This document shows positions 8,889 through 57,341 of a DNA stretch of 64,000 nucleotides, in pieces. The position numbers were made by a program, and so were the translations under genes. This DNA comes from Lysobacter capsici. Lineage in GTDB: Bacteria; Pseudomonadota; Gammaproteobacteria; Xanthomonadales; Xanthomonadaceae. The first letter of the stretch is position 1; each line of letters opens with the position of its first letter. The stretch lies in assembly GCF_014779555.2 (NCBI RefSeq), contig NZ_CP094357.1, forward strand, positions 1,116,001 through 1,180,000. The letters are read 5' to 3'. Below the pieces are notes generated by a model. The model was not told the DNA's origin and made no database searches. It saw only the letters and a list, made by a program, of their open reading frames with translations.

Positions 8889-11462
8889 TCAGAAGATGTC
8901 GAACGATTCTTCCGATGGCGCGGCGTCTTCGGTGCCGTAATCGGTGTAGGTCTGCATGCGTTCGAGGTCTTCGGCCTTGACCCATTCGATCACGCCGCCG
9001 GTGCCGTCGGGAATCAGCGCGCCGTTGCCGGCCACCGACACCTTGACCATGCCCTGCGGCGGTTCGTTCGGCTGGATCGGCTTGTCCTTGAGCGCCACGC
9101 GCATGTAGTCGATCCAGATCGGCAGCGCGGCCTTGCCGCCGTACTCGCGGTAGCCCAGCGACTTGTAGTTGTCGCGGCCCACCCAGACGGTGGTGACGTA
9201 CGGGCCGCCGAAGCCGGAGAACCAGGCGTCGCGGTGATCGTTGGTCGAACCGGTCTTGCCGCCGACGTCCTCGCGGCCGAGCACCTTGGCCGCGGTGCCG
9301 GTGCCGCGTTTGACCACGTCGCGCAGCATCGACACGATCTGGTAGGCGATGCGGTCGTCGATCGCGCGCGGGGCCAGGTTCAGCGCCGCCATTTCGGCCG
9401 GGGTGAGCGGCTTCTTTTCCGGTTCGGCCGGCTTCTTGTCCTTGCTGGCCTTGTCCTTCGGATCGGGCTTCTTGGCCGCGCTGTCGGCGCCGGGCGCGGG
9501 GCCCAGGTCGAAGCCGTCGACCACGTTGCTGACCGGCAACGCCGCCGACGAGGTGCCGCCGCGGCCGCCGCATTGCGGGCAGGCGGTGGCCGGCTTTTCC
9601 TTGAACACCACCGCGCCGGCGCGATCCTTGACCTCGTCGATGAACCACGGGGTGATGCGGAAGCCGCCGTTGGCGAACACCGAATAGCCGCGCGCGACCG
9701 ACAGCGGGGTCAGCGAGGCGGTGCCCAACGACATCGACAGGTTCGGCGGCAACTGCTCGGGATCGAAACCGAAATGGCTGATGTACTTGCGCGCGAAATC
9801 GACGCTGATGGCATCGAGCAGGCGCACCGAGACCAGATTGCGCGACTGCACCATCGCCTCGCGCACGCGCATCGGGCCGGCGAAATTGCCGCCGTCGTTC
9901 TGCGGGCGCCACAGGTGGCCGCGGCGGTCCTTGAACACCACCGGGGCGTCGAGCACGATCGAGGCCGGGTTGTAGCCGCGTTCGAACGCGGCCGCGTACA
10001 CGAACGGCTTGAAGCTCGAACCGGGCTGGCGCCGCGCCTGGGTGGCGCGGTTGAACTTGGCGCCGGCGAAGCTGTAGCCGCCCGACAGGGCGCGCAGCGC
10101 GCCGTCGGCGGGTTCCAGCGAGACCAGCGCGGCCTGCGCCTGCGGCAGCTGATCCAGACGGTAGGTCACGATCGGCGGCTCAGCCGGGGTGGCGGGCGCC
10201 GCCGGCGCGGCTTCGCCGGGCTTGGGCTCGGCCACCGGCTTGGCCGGGGTTTCCAGGCGCGCGACCCGGACCAGATCGCCGCGGGTCAGCAGGCTGCCGG
10301 GGCTGCGGCCGCCGAAGCCCTGCTTGTCGGTGAGGGTCAGTTCGGTGCCGTCGCCGAGCGCGACCGTGGCCTGCGAGCCGCTGGTCGACAGGACCACGGC
10401 CGGCAGCAGGTTGGCCTGAGCCGGAATGCCGCGCAGGCGCACGCGTATGGCCGCCGCGTCGTCGCCGGCGGCGAGGTCGAAGTGCTGCTCCACGCCGTGC
10501 CAGCCGTGGCGGCGGTCGTACACCGACAGGCCGTCGCGGATCGCCTTGTCGGCTGCGATCTGCAGGGTCGGGTCGATGGTGGTGGTGACGTGGTAGCCCT
10601 TGGTCAGCGCCTCGGCGCCGTAGCGGGCGACCATTTCCTGGCGGACCATTTCGGCCACGTACGGCGCATACACCTCGACCGGGCGTTCGTGCGGGGTCGC
10701 GTGCATCGGCACCGCCTTGGCCTGGGCGGCTTCCTCGGCGCTGATGAAGCGCTGCTCTGCCATGCGGTCGAGGATGTAGTCGCGACGGATCTTGGCGCGC
10801 TCGGGATTGCTGAGCGGGTTGCCGCTGGACGGGAACTTCGGAATGCCGGCCAGCGAGGCCATTTCGTCGAGCGACAGCTCGCTCATCTTCTTGCCGTAGT
10901 AGAACTCGGCCGCCGCGCCCACGCCGTAGGCGCGGTTGCCGAAGAAGCTCTTGTTCAAGTACAGCTCGAAGATCTCGTCCTTGCTCAGCTCCTGCTCCAT
11001 GCGCATGGCCAGCAGCATTTCGCCGAGCTTGCGCTTGTAGCTGTATTCCGAACTCAGGAAGAACTGGCGCGCGACCTGCTGGGTGATGGTCGAACCGCCC
11101 GGCACGCGCTTGTCGTCGGTGGTCGCCAGCAGCCAGATCGCGCGGCCGATGCCTTTGTAGTCGATGCCGTGGTGCTGGTAGAAGCGCGAGTCCTCGATCG
11201 CGATGAACGCCTGTTTCTGGCGCTCGGGCACGTCTTCGATCGCGATCGGGTAGCGCCGGGTCTCGCCGAACATCGCCATCAGGCGGCCGTCGCGGGCGTA
11301 GACGTACATCGGTTCCTGCAGCTCGATGGTGCGCAGGGTTTCGACGTCGGGCAGTTTGGGGACGATCAGGTAGTACAAGGTGCCGAGCGCGATGGCGCCC
11401 AGCAGGGCCACGCCGATGAACGCGTAAAGCGCCCAGCGCAGCCAACGGCGTATACGGGACAT
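8889..11462 (-). CDS. mrcA: Penicillin-binding protein 1A (bifunctional peptidoglycan synthase)
   Basis: Polymerises and cross-links peptidoglycan in the periplasm, anchored in the inner membrane. The 857-residue protein has a short cytoplasmic N-terminus and one membrane segment (residues about 12-34). The GT51 glycosyltransferase domain follows, with catalytic Glu90 in [11 protein letters not shown] and GGSTITQQ near 122-129. An OB-like insert is present, and then the transpeptidase domain with Ser482-x-x-Lys485 (SSFK), SRN at 540-542 and KTG at 736-738. An unusual insert at about 625-690 contains CPQCGG and a lysine/proline-rich run. The gene diverges from pilM, an arrangement common in gammaproteobacteria. 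Confidence 0.96.
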
Positions 11463-11877
11463 CGAAGCGGGTTCCGGGGTCGGTGGTCGTAGCGGGGAAG
11501 TATAGAGGAGCGCGGATCGCGACCCGGGGCCCGGTTTGCCGATCGGGTCCGGGCGGTCCGTGCCGGGGTCGCGGCGGCTCCGCGACCGGTCCGGGCGGGC
11601 CGGTTTCGCGCAATTGGCGGCCGGACCGGGTGTTTCGCCAACCGATCCGCGCCGTCGCGAACGCGCAAATGCCGGCGCCGGCACGGATCGCGCCCCGGCC
11701 TTGGCGGCAGGATCGGCAAAGCGGCCCGCGCCGCTGGGCGATTCCCGATTCGGCCGGCGCAAAGGCGCCCGCGCGCGGTTTCGCGTCGGGACGCCCGACG
11801 AGTGGACTGACGGTGGCGGTCACGTGACGTTGAGGGTCAAAAAAGCACGACTTGGTTGGCATTCACGAAAGAAGTGG
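11463..11877. other. Divergent intergenic region between mrcA and pilM
   Basis: Very GC-rich, with many short open frames on both strands, none with a credible start or protein-like text. It must hold the mrcA promoter, which I cannot place. The last 120 bp before pilM are markedly richer in A and T. Confidence 0.5.
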
Positions 11878-42496: not shown

Positions 42497-42985
42497 ATGA
42501 ATTCACCCGATCCTCAGCCCGGCCATCGAGCGCTTCGACGCGGTCGCGGGTCCGAGCAACAACGCATTTACTTGGTCACTACCGTGTGCATTCGCCGCCG
42601 TCGAATCTTCGCCAGCGACCACTGCGCCGATATCGCCGCCCGCGCCATCGCCGACCCCGGAAAATGGCTGGGAGCGACCTTGCTGTGCTGGGTGCTGATG
42701 CCCGACCACTGGCATGGCTTGATTGAGTTGCATAGCGACATTCGCTTGGAAAGCGTAGTGGCCTCGCTCAAGGGCCGCGCCGCGCGCGCGGTCAATCGCA
42801 GTTTGCACCGCAAGGGGATGGTGTGGGCGCCGGGTTTTCACGATCACGCATTGCGCGAGGATGATGACGTGCTGCAGGCGGCGCGTTATATCGTCGCCAA
42901 TCCGAAGCGCGCGGGGCTTGTGCAGCGGGTTGGCGACTACCCGTATTGGGATGCGGTGTGGCTGGAACAAAAGCGTCGGGGTTGA
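42497..42985 (+). CDS. REP-associated tyrosine transposase (RAYT)
   Basis: A 162-residue single-strand DNA transposase of the Y1/IS200-like (HUH) family, domesticated in bacteria to handle REP palindromes. The HUH-type pair is in WVLMPDHWHGLIEL (His71, His73) and the presumed catalytic tyrosine is Tyr131 in ARYIVANPKRAG. VVASLKGRAARAVNR and VWAPGFHDHALREDDDV are typical RAYT text. Four REP elements flank the gene in two inverted pairs, and its own last codons and stop lie within the third, which is a hallmark of REP-RAYT coevolution. It looks intact. Confidence 0.9.
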   Translation: MNSPDPQPGHRALRRGRGSEQQRIYLVTTVCIRRRRIFASDHCADIAARAIADPGKWLGATLLCWVLMPDHWHGLIELHSDIRLESVVASLKGRAARAVNRSLHRKGMVWAPGFHDHALREDDDVLQAARYIVANPKRAGLVQRVGDYPYWDAVWLEQKRRG

Positions 42986-54254: not shown

Positions 54255-56534
54255 TCAGGCCGTCGCCAGCACCGACTCGCGCAATCCCTGCGCCGCCCGC
54301 ACCATCGCCTGCAGCGCCGCGCGCACTTCCGGCCAGCCGCGGGTCTTCAATCCGCAGTCCGGATTGACCCACACCTGCGCCGGATCGAGCACCTCCAGCG
54401 CCTTGTCGAGCAACTCGCGCATCTCGGTTTCGCTGGGCACGCGCGGGGAGTGGATGTCGTACACGCCCGGGCCGATGCCGTTGGGATAGCGATAACGCGC
54501 GAACGCGTCGAGCAGTTCCATGCGCGAACGCGAGGTCTCGATCGAGATCACGTCGGCGTCCAGCGCCGCGACCGCTTCGATGATGTCGTTGAACTCGGCG
54601 TAGCACATGTGGGTGTGGATCTGGGTCGCATCGCCCACGCCGCTGGCGGCCAGGCGGAACGATTCGCCGGCCCAGGCCAGGTACGCCGGCCAGTCGGCGC
54701 GGCGCAGCGGCAGGCCTTCGCGCAGCGCCGGTTCGTCGATCTGGATCACCGCGATCCCAGCCGCTTCCAGGTCCAGCACTTCCTCGCGCAAGGCCAGGGC
54801 GATCTGCCGGCAACTGTCGGCGCGCGGCTGATCGTCGCGCACGAACGACCACTGCAGGATCGTCACCGGTCCGGTTAGCATGCCCTTGACCGGGCGCGCG
54901 GTGAGCGATTGCGCGTAGCGCGTCCACTCCACCGTCATCGCGCGCGGCCGCGCCACATCGCCGAACAGCACCGGCGGCTTGACGCAACGCGAGCCGTAGC
55001 TCTGCACCCAGCCGTGCGCGGTGAAGGCGAAACCGTCGAGTTGTTCGCCGAAGTATTCGACCATGTCGTTGCGTTCGAACTCGCCATGCACCAGCACGTC
55101 GATGCCGAGCGTTTCCTGCTCGCGCAGGCATTGCGCGGTTTCGTTTTCGAGGAACGCCTGATACGCCGCGTCGTCCAGCTTGCCGGCCTTGTGCTCGGCG
55201 CGCGCGCGCCGCACCTGCGCGGTCTGCGGGAACGAGCCGATGGTGGTGGTCGGGAACAGCGGCAGGTTCAGGCGTTCTTGTTGCAGTTGCGCGCGCTTGG
55301 CATACGGCGACACGCGCCGGGCCATCGCCGGTTCGACCGCGGCCAGGCGCTTGCGCACCCGCGCGTTGCGCAGCAGCGGCGAAGCCAGGCGCGCGGCGCG
55401 CGCGCTGGCGGCGGCGGCGAGATCGCGCGCGGCCTGCGCATCGCCGCCGAGCACGACGGCGAGCAGATGCAGTTCTTCGATCTTCTGCCTGGCGTAGGCC
55501 ATCCAGTGGCGCAGCGGCGTGGGCAGTTTGCGTTCCAGTTCGATATCGGTCGGCACGTGCAGCAGCGAGCACGACGGCGCCAGCCAGGTCGCCCGATCAC
55601 CGGCGCGACGGGCCAGGCTCAGCGCGGCGTCGAGATCGGCGCGCCAGATGTTGCGGCCGTCGACCACGCCCAGGCTCAGCGCGCGTTGTTCCGGCAGCAG
55701 CGGCAGCAGGCTTTCCAGTTGCTGCGGCGCGCGCACCAGATCGACATGCAGACCTTCCACCGGCAGCTGCGCGGCGAGCGTGGCGTTGTCGCCGAGCGCG
55801 CCGAAGTAGGTGGTCAGCAGACGCCGCGGCGCATCGACTTCGGCCAGCGCGGCATAGGCGCGACGGAACGCGGCGCGGTCGGCGTCGTCCAGGTCCAGGG
55901 TCAGGGTCGGTTCGTCCAACTGCACCCACTGCGCACCGGCCGCCTTGAGCTTGGCCAGCAGTTCGGCGTAAGCGGGGAGCAGGGCGTCGAGCAACTCGCG
56001 CGGGTCGCCGCCGTCGTTGCGCTTGCCGAGCTTGAGGAACGACACCGGGCCGAGCAGCACCGGCCGCGCGTCGAGTCCCAGCGCCTGCGCCTGGGCCAGT
56101 TCGGCCAGCGGCTTGTCGCCGCGCAGGGCGAAGCGCTGGCCGGGTTCGAACTGCGGCACCAGATAGTGATAGTTGGTGTCGAACCACTTGGTCATTTCCA
56201 GCGCGCGCAGATCGCGACGGCCGTCCTGCACGCCGCGGGCGAGGGCGAAATAACCGCCCAGCGGATCTTCTTCGAACGCCGCGCGGTGCGAGGCCGGGAT
56301 GGCGTCGAACAACACCGCGTTGTCGAGCACGTGGTCGTAAAGCGAGAAATCGTTGCACGGCACGACGTCGGCGCCGGCGTCGTGGGCGAGCCGCCAATGG
56401 CGTTCGCGCAGCGAGGCGGCGGTGTCGTGCAGCGCCTGGGCCGGCGTGTCGCCTTTCCAGAACGATTCCAGGGCCAGCTTGAGCTCGCGCCGCGCGCCGA
56501 TGCGCGGGAAGCCGAGGTGGGTAACGCTGATCAT
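54255..56534 (-). CDS. metE: Cobalamin-independent methionine synthase
   Basis: Transfers a methyl group from 5-methyltetrahydropteroyl-triglutamate to homocysteine without B12. The 759-residue length fits the two-barrel MetE. FPRIGARRELKLALESFWKG opens the N-terminal domain. In the C-terminal catalytic domain are PTTTIGSFPQTAQVRRARAEHKAGKL, the zinc ligands in IHTHMCYAEFNDI (His, Cys), and VNPDCGLKTRGWPEV (Cys). It is the first gene after a cobalamin riboswitch on the same strand, implying repression when B12 is available, so the genome presumably also encodes B12-dependent MetH. Confidence 0.97.
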   Translation of the reverse strand: MISVTHLGFPRIGARRELKLALESFWKGDTPAQALHDTAASLRERHWRLAHDAGADVVPCNDFSLYDHVLDNAVLFDAIPASHRAAFEEDPLGGYFALARGVQDGRRDLRALEMTKWFDTNYHYLVPQFEPGQRFALRGDKPLAELAQAQALGLDARPVLLGPVSFLKLGKRNDGGDPRELLDALLPAYAELLAKLKAAGAQWVQLDEPTLTLDLDDADRAAFRRAYAALAEVDAPRRLLTTYFGALGDNATLAAQLPVEGLHVDLVRAPQQLESLLPLLPEQRALSLGVVDGRNIWRADLDAALSLARRAGDRATWLAPSCSLLHVPTDIELERKLPTPLRHWMAYARQKIEELHLLAVVLGGDAQAARDLAAAASARAARLASPLLRNARVRKRLAAVEPAMARRVSPYAKRAQLQQERLNLPLFPTTTIGSFPQTAQVRRARAEHKAGKLDDAAYQAFLENETAQCLREQETLGIDVLVHGEFERNDMVEYFGEQLDGFAFTAHGWVQSYGSRCVKPPVLFGDVARPRAMTVEWTRYAQSLTARPVKGMLTGPVTILQWSFVRDDQPRADSCRQIALALREEVLDLEAAGIAVIQIDEPALREGLPLRRADWPAYLAWAGESFRLAASGVGDATQIHTHMCYAEFNDIIEAVAALDADVISIETSRSRMELLDAFARYRYPNGIGPGVYDIHSPRVPSETEMRELLDKALEVLDPAQVWVNPDCGLKTRGWPEVRAALQAMVRAAQGLRESVLATA

Positions 56535-56714: not shown

Positions 56715-56732
56715 CGGAAGGCGAACCTTCCG
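56715..56732 (-). promoter_or_regulatory. UUCG-capped hairpin after the B12 box
   Basis: On the minus strand CGGAAGG-TTCG-CCTTCCG, six bases after the B12 box and about 180 nt before metE, with no T-run following. It may be part of the riboswitch expression platform. Confidence 0.5.
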
Positions 56733-56735
56733 GTC

Positions 56736-57000
56736 GCGGCAGGTCTTCGGGCTCGGGACTTTGAGCGAGAAGTAGAGTGCAGAAAAGTGAGAAACGAGTA
56801 GAAGCCGCGGCCTTACTCGTTTCTCACTGTTCTGAACTCTACCCTCGCCCTTTCCTACTAAGGCCGCTTCCCAGGCTCACCGCCCAGTGCCAAGACCCGT
56901 TCGTTTCCCATACCGCTGCGGGGCAGCTCCGGATTCGCACCGGATTCCCTCTGGCCGTCCGCGGCGGTTGCCTCGGGCGGCGTGTCCCATCGCTTTATCT
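56736..57000 (-). promoter_or_regulatory. Cobalamin riboswitch upstream of metE, with long internal hairpin
   Basis: Read on the minus strand, the conserved blocks appear in order: GGGAATCCGGTGCGAATCC (56931-56949), GCTGCCCCGCA (56917-56927), GCACTGGGCG (56881-56890), GGGAAG (56867-56872) and the B12 box AGCCCGAAGACCTGCC (56738-56753). The distance between GGGAAG and the B12 box is about 110 nt, because an 84-nt hairpin (56765-56848) is inserted. Without it the element has the usual length of about 180-200 nt. It lies 200 nt before the metE start. Confidence 0.9.
56765..56848. repeat. Long near-perfect inverted repeat inside the metE riboswitch
   Basis: A central perfect 14-bp stem (GTGAGAAACGAGTA / TACTCGTTTCTCAC, 13-nt loop) extends outward to GTAGAGT / ACTCTAC with only two mismatches in 29 bp, and beyond a small bulge to GCGAG / CTCGC. 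It is markedly more AT-rich than its surroundings, so it looks like an acquired palindromic element. Confidence 0.9.
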
Positions 57001-57341
57001 TTATGAAGCGATGTTCACCGTAACGGCGCCAAGGTACGCAGCGGGACCGGTGAAGTCAATCGGCGCGGCGCGATCGTGGGACGCGGTTCGCGGCGGCGAC
57101 CACGCCGCGCCGGCCGCCGCGGGTTTGCGCGTTATGGCCCCTGCGAGAAGACGCGCGAATGGGCCGGTTTTCTGCGGCTGGCGTTCATGCGCGGCCGCCG
57201 ATGATGAAGGCCGTCTGTCGCCTGCCTGCACCCACGCCGTCGTTGAGCTTGGCGATGGCTGCCGCTAACGTTTGCATTGGCGCAAGATGCGTGGCGCGGG
57301 CCAGGACGGTCCCGCGCGATCCCGACTCCCATGGGTGGAAC

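Follow-up and report, generated by a model that had tools for sequence, protein, structure and literature searches.

The cobalamin riboswitch in the leader of metE of Lysobacter capsici carries, between its GGGAAG strand and its B12 box, a long hairpin in the variable stem, and this hairpin is probably one copy of a palindromic repeat of about 84 bp that is dispersed through the genome and the genus. Comparison with related species makes it likely that this tolerated peripheral stem has been repeatedly occupied and vacated by the genus-wide palindrome. The variable stem of the metE switch would thereby have been replaced or filled by a single copy of the repeat. The slot would be both permissive and labile: in the metE and nrdA switches alike, palindromes would have been acquired, lost, trimmed or swapped for others next to a conserved core.

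A cobalamin riboswitch upstream of metE

We analyzed a window of 64 kb, the whole stretch of DNA presented here, with Rfam cmscan. The cobalamin riboswitch family RF00174 (gathering score 31.5 bits) provided the single match above the gathering threshold in the entire window. The gene directly downstream of this match is metE according to Pfam, i.e., the gene context is B12-related. The main features of the locus are as follows.

56721..56990, minus strand: cobalamin riboswitch aptamer RF00174 in the metE leader, 75.1 bits, model positions 1-189 of 189
56738..56753, minus strand: B12 box region AGCCCGAAGACCTGCC, from the bases read and the RF00174 alignment
56763..56850, minus strand: long hairpin of 88 nt, with 39 pairs, two 1x1 mismatches and two 1-nt bulges in the predicted fold
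56854..56859, minus strand: AGTAGG, 5' flank of the variable arm, recognized by eye and also present in all nine leaders of the genus, metE or nrdA, that have a short arm
54255..56534 including the stop codon, minus strand: metE, cobalamin-independent methionine synthase, 759 aa, Pfam PF01717 and PF08267

These results bear out much of the first-pass annotation of this DNA, which had recognized the conserved cobalamin aptamer blocks on the minus strand, a B12 box at these same bases and metE as the gene behind the riboswitch. The RF00174 search that it had proposed scored well above the gathering score and spanned the full model. Judging from its sequence, the leader RNA belongs to the B12 riboswitches that repress the B12-independent metE, and we infer that the switch works. 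The RF00174 alignment at metE includes one long insert, after model position 151. We take the stem at the hairpin's place to be P9, and we presume a placement of the optional P8-P10-P11 domain in this aptamer such that the insert lies between that domain and the 3' strand leading to the B12 box.

An additional inverted repeat, CATCGCTTCATAAAGATAAAGCGATG (window 56988-57013, minus strand), lies at the 5' edge of the aptamer match and is also found in the metE leader of a relative (G013, L084). It is possibly an operator or a leader hairpin, and its half sites may be SahR-like.

A hairpin predicted to fold independently in the variable stem

The pair count of the hairpin was taken from the predicted fold of a 116-nt stretch, which has a free energy of -61.3 kcal/mol compared with a mean of -32.5 for shuffled sequences (z = -9.1; 0 of 200 shuffles were as good). 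No other palindrome in the 64-kb window reached the score of the metE hairpin in an ungapped Watson-Crick scan. The two mismatches described in the first-pass annotation were recovered in the fold, whereas the pairs number 39 rather than about 34 and the bulges two rather than one. Similarly, its designation of the hairpin as AT-rich holds only in relative terms: the composition does differ from the surroundings, with 51% GC over 56762-56851 vs 68% in the whole window.

Within the leader, 98% of the predicted pairing of the metE arm is internal, as expected from the earlier suggestion that the hairpin folds autonomously. Once transcribed, the palindrome would fold as a separate hairpin of its own, so that the aptamer core would be spared and left alone, and the hairpin would appear to be functionally near-neutral. 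A kissing pair noticed by eye in the window's genome, between GCGGCCTTA before the arm and TAAGGCCGC in the loop, was discarded at a base-pair probability of 0, a value obtained by nested folding, which would miss a pseudoknot. Unconstrained folding missed the core helices in the majority of leaders of either arm form and thus provides no check on the core; being uninformative for short and long leaders alike, it lent no weight to a disruption of the core by the hairpin.

Kinship to a repeat dispersed in the genome and the genus

We searched the genome of the window (G000; 6.24 Mb, one contig) by blastn, using a 111-nt query that covers the metE arm. This search, also proposed at the outset, uncovered dispersed copies: 47 matching pieces were obtained at E ≤ 10, many of them being both strands of one palindrome, and the best matches outside the riboswitch showed 75-84% identity over 52-78 bases (E 6e-14 to 3e-8). 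The pattern GTGAGAAACGAG, allowing at most one mismatch, occurred 57 times in G000 vs 11 times for the reversed pattern. At C1:636995-637310 (L034-L040), the repeat recurs in tandem about every 152 bases, the pattern matches lying 152 apart.

To describe the repeat itself, we used a covariance model, R1, made from 16 aligned non-riboswitch copies and zero riboswitch arms; eight of the copies came from G000 and eight from G001, G003, G006, G007, G009 and G012. The consensus of this alignment has 23 pairs, six of which display a compensatory change in at least one sequence. R2 is a sequence-only version of the model. Any long hairpin may account for matches scoring under about 30 bits. R2 scored 54.8 and 57.6 bits on the metE arm of the window, and R1 matched this arm and nothing else in the window:

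56766..56849, minus strand: match to the dispersed repeat model R1, 77.1 bits; on the plus strand, 56764-56848, 75.2 bits

All 20 genomes of our genus sample, G000 included, contained R1 matches at E ≤ 0.01, ranging from 5 in G004 to 147 in G009, with 83 in G000; these counts cover both strands, copies being about half as many, and 150 candidates were scored per genome. In 393 kb of G001, R1 gave 12 matches at six places and none on an unrelated long palindrome (L360). Beyond the genus, a genome of the same family and another genus (G022) yielded four blastn pieces with the arm of G007, and none of 25 further non-genus genomes yielded a piece of this arm at E ≤ 1e-6. None of 55 non-genus loci was matched by R1 at E ≤ 1, including 34 that surround RF00174 hits from the family's other genera. 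Other structured RNAs were considered as hosts of the repeat and rejected: among 20 loci near the repeat, the single Rfam match, to the sRNA sX5 (L011, 584-631), lies away from it.

The same slot in the nrdA switch

G000 has five RF00174 matches. One of them, 8.5 kb from the metE switch, is the switch of nrdA (L003), identified by Pfam as the ribonucleotide reductase large subunit. This switch lies upstream of nrdA; its long hairpin aligns to the position of the metE one, and R1 matches its arm at 42.4 bits. MetE and this ribonucleotide reductase each act in a route that does not depend on B12. No R1 match at E ≤ 1 was obtained for the three remaining B12 switches of G000, and in the other switches of G000, G001, G003 and G005 the arms span 38-73 nt (nine measured).

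These observations bear on the idea that the hairpin would add a function, as a long duplex that would recruit RNase III or another double-strand binder and so couple processing or decay of the leader to the B12 state. The nearly perfect 39-pair duplex of the leader would suit such a role, as would pairing that is kept across diverging metE and nrdA sequences, both genes encoding B12-independent enzymes, and the confinement of R1 matches to these two of the five switches. Nevertheless, species with short arms do without the long hairpin, which is therefore not needed throughout the genus, and compensatory change is explained equally well by copying from a structured repeat. We regard this role as quite unlikely, and favor a near-neutral occupant derived from the dispersed repeat.

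Arm length and sequence across the genus

Among the 20 genomes, metE leaders were read in 18 (all except G011 and G014) and nrdA leaders in 20. Measured from GGGAAGCG to the B12 box, the arms have short forms of 41-44 nt and long forms of 69-121 nt. The metE arm is long in 12 of 18 leaders and short in six, and the nrdA arm is long in 17 of 20, the three short ones being those of G005, G016 and G017. The RF00174 scores of the metE leaders, in bits, are listed by arm form.

Long arm: G000 75.1, G001 73.8, G002 73.7, G006 78.3, G007 73.7, G008 78.6, G009 71.4, G010 76.9, G018 73.2, G019 75.2
Long arm, matching model positions 48-166 only: G004 58.9, G015 53.9
Short arm: G003 79.9, G005 78.8, G012 70.0, G013 68.1 (arm read by eye), G016 77.9, G017 78.5

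Scores thus lie at 71-79 bits in 10 of the 12 long-arm leaders and at 68-80 bits in all six with short arms. Since the leaders of G004 and G015 match the family only partly, their GC-rich arm may cost the aptamer core something. In other genera of the family, all 34 B12-switch arms from 16 genomes measure at most 63 nt (31 by script, 22-57 nt; three by eye, about 50, 51 and 63 nt), after a second, longer arm reading was dropped at two loci.

We applied R1 to 41 riboswitch sources, comprising the window, L003, 17 metE and 19 nrdA leaders of relatives, and the three other switches of G000. At E ≤ 1, all 17 long nrdA arms and 9 of the 12 long metE arms were matched, compared with none of the nine short metE and nrdA arms. 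The weakest matches among the metE arms were those of G010 and G019 (E about 0.02), and the arms missed were those of G004, G006 and G015. With R2 at E ≤ 0.001, matches were found for 6 of 12 long metE arms and 15 of 17 long nrdA arms. The arm of G006 is a G007-type arm minus its centre that still forms a hairpin, and the long arms of G004 and G015 matched neither R1 nor R2.

By eye and by blastn, the long metE arms group as G000, G001, G006, G007 and G009; G002 and G018; G004 and G015; and G008, G010 and G019. Kin of the G002 arm amounted to 36 blastn pieces in G018, 12 in G002 itself and a few in G015, G009, G004 and G011, with none in the other 14 genomes. For the G004 arm, kin were present in G004 and G015, with one fragment in G018 and none besides (blastn, 40 candidates scored per genome).

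The arm diverges more than the core. Median identity among long-arm metE leaders was 0.92 in the core vs 0.57 in the arm (n = 11; G006 was omitted for its trimmed arm of 45 nt), and among long-arm nrdA leaders 0.87 vs 0.65 (n = 17). Predicted arm pairing is internal by at least 0.92 in 25 of the 29 long leaders, among them that of G006; the lower values belong to the metE leaders of G008 (0.76), G010 (0.82), G015 (0.80) and G019 (0.81).

Probable repeated turnover of the slot

In a codon tree of nrdA and metE, G003 is the neighbor of G000 within a clade that also contains G001, and G006 and G007 are placed next to this clade. The metE arm of G003, a sister species, is of the short form and is nested in the tree among long arms. 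The minimum number of changes within the genus is three for short vs long metE arms, two for short vs long nrdA arms and six for the metE arm groups. The variable slot is long in most of the genus and in two riboswitches, with sequence groups that differ by clade. A single recent insertion was rejected, as a related arm is present in G001 and G007 and G003, nested among them, is without a long arm. Hence, the first-pass view of a palindromic element that landed in a peripheral stem is sustained by the dispersed copies, the independent fold and the short arms of some close relatives, but the history is not one landing.

Alternatively, the long stem could be a lineage-specific arm of the aptamer, lengthened in place under selection for pairing, with the dispersed palindromes being unrelated or merely alike in composition. 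The first-pass annotation had stated that this would follow if all close relatives shared the same long stem with compensatory changes. The compensatory half of this pattern was seen: in an alignment of four metE arms, 6 of 37 pairs carry compensatory changes (9 of 37 are broken or gapped in one sequence). The long form also prevails in most members of the genus, in both metE and nrdA switches, and the metE hairpins of G004 and G015 have no dispersed kin that we found beyond one fragment. However, the metE arm is short in a third of the leaders read, one of them nested among long ones, and the dispersed copies show the same pattern of compensatory change (6 of 23 pairs). The strong match of the arm to copies elsewhere in the genome, also with the sequence-only model, largely refutes a lineage-specific arm alone, and we consider this alternative very unlikely compared with occupation of the slot by the dispersed repeat.

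How the repeat may move

The distribution of the repeat supports its mobility. In the gap between rimM and trmD, R1 matched in 14 of 20 genus genomes at E ≤ 0.01 (the G000 copy being one of the training copies of R1), and in G010 and G019 this gap holds a GC-rich hairpin that R1 missed. The gap of G001, G003, G015 and G004 (L345, L346, L347 and L348) contains a stretch of about 360-370 nt that lacks the repeat and apparently includes a small ORF. The sequence group of the rimM-trmD repeat varies between clades as well. The metE arm is closer to the rimM-trmD repeat of its own genome than to those of others, in a comparison that still includes clade structure (p = 0.00015, n = 8). No such excess likeness to the rimM-trmD repeat was detected for the nrdA arm (p = 0.18, n = 13), and the metE and nrdA arms of the same genome gave p = 0.13 (n = 11), relatedness being still included in both values. 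Genome-wide concerted evolution of all slots was accordingly rejected, as only the metE arm tracks the genome's own rimM-trmD repeat and the nrdA arms do not.

Ten repeat sites of G000 were sought in G001, of which seven were resolved; for two no flanks were found, and one (L027) fell across two fetched stretches. Among the resolved counterparts, those of L032 and L019 contain the repeat, and those of L013, L015, L018, L012 and L011 have no R1 match and other sequence in place. A partial R1 match suggests that the site at L027 is common to both genomes. By eye, none of the seven resolved sites exhibited a target-site duplication or a clean empty site, the combination by which a MITE would be recognized. 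Allelic recombination through flanking genes would explain such mixed repeat sites. We infer that the riboswitch arms come from the dispersed copies, through transposition, gene conversion or allelic recombination, and not the reverse.

Two of the G001 loci have contents of their own: at the counterpart of the L015 site lies a different long palindrome with CGTCATTCCCGCG ends (L360, about 11278-11555), and an apparent insertion sequence, with a transposase-like ORF seen by eye, replaces the G000 repeat at C1:118772 (L357, about 9765-10665).

REP and REPIN elements are dispersed palindromes associated with Y1 transposases. The repeat could correspondingly be a miniature transposon or REP-like unit that an IS200-like (Y1) transposase moved in trans, its arrival in the metE leader being a recent and ordinary transposition. 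The dispersed palindromes, their presence or absence between close species and the Y1_Tnp genes, detected in 19 of the 20 genomes of the genus with one such gene in the window, would fit this scenario. On the other hand, G007 has no Y1_Tnp match yet contains 83 R1 matches over both strands, no R1 copy lies beside the Y1 gene of the window, target duplications were not seen among the resolved G000 and G001 sites, and the related metE arms of G000, G001 and G007 indicate that the event was not recent. The repeat also differs from REP and REPIN elements in consisting of one long palindrome whose arms are about 34 bases each. Taken together, this scenario is unlikely, albeit somewhat less so than the other alternatives, and repeated turnover remains our preferred reading. 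The Y1 gene of the window encodes a 162-aa IS200-like Y1_Tnp ORF (42497-42985, plus strand; PF01797, E 3.9e-11), and in nine genus genomes Y1 genes are located about 12-16 kb from metE.

A more speculative extension, to which we assign a low probability, is that the stem by the B12 box of the metE and nrdA switches serves as a standing exchange slot, into and out of which repeats recombine and whose duplex tunes processing or decay of the leader, e.g., by RNase III. If so, a selfish repeat would supply a riboswitch module on genes for B12-independent enzymes.

Comparison with known systems

Among the matches listed, the open-access literature gave no report of repeats inside a B12 aptamer or of this Lysobacter repeat. 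As far as the available text extends, the main text of a study on an intrastrand triplex (PMC4666352) has no mention of Lysobacter, Xanthomon- or Stenotrophomonas, and in that of PMC3733652 Xanthomonadaceae terms occur only in the reference list.

The metE element resembles the cobalamin (AdoCbl) riboswitches of RF00174 in its full-length match, its B12 box and its metE context. For riboswitches generally, Barrick and Breaker (2007, PMC2258182) describe long inserts of variable sequence or size that form stem-loops; their paper is also our source for the name of the optional P8-P10-P11 domain. Variable riboswitch stems are therefore ordinary; what is unusual is a visible source together with turnover of the slot in two switches of one genus. 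Unlike in RF00174 switches generally, a copy of a palindrome dispersed in the genome makes up the variable stem here, and this stem turns over from one related species to another. The origin of long variable stem-loops in riboswitches is rarely visible, and here one source, a family of genomic palindromes, can be seen. Moreover, the sister species offer natural long and short alleles of one switch, in which ligand response, folding and RNA processing could be tested.

A related arrangement, described in PMC3049150 (2011), occurs in the pneumococcal trp operon, where a BOX repeat separates two T-box riboswitches; it is likewise a dispersed structured repeat in a riboswitch leader that is thought to fold largely independently. 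Whereas BOX lies between riboswitches, the Lysobacter palindrome resides inside a peripheral stem of the aptamer, in two switches and in varying versions.
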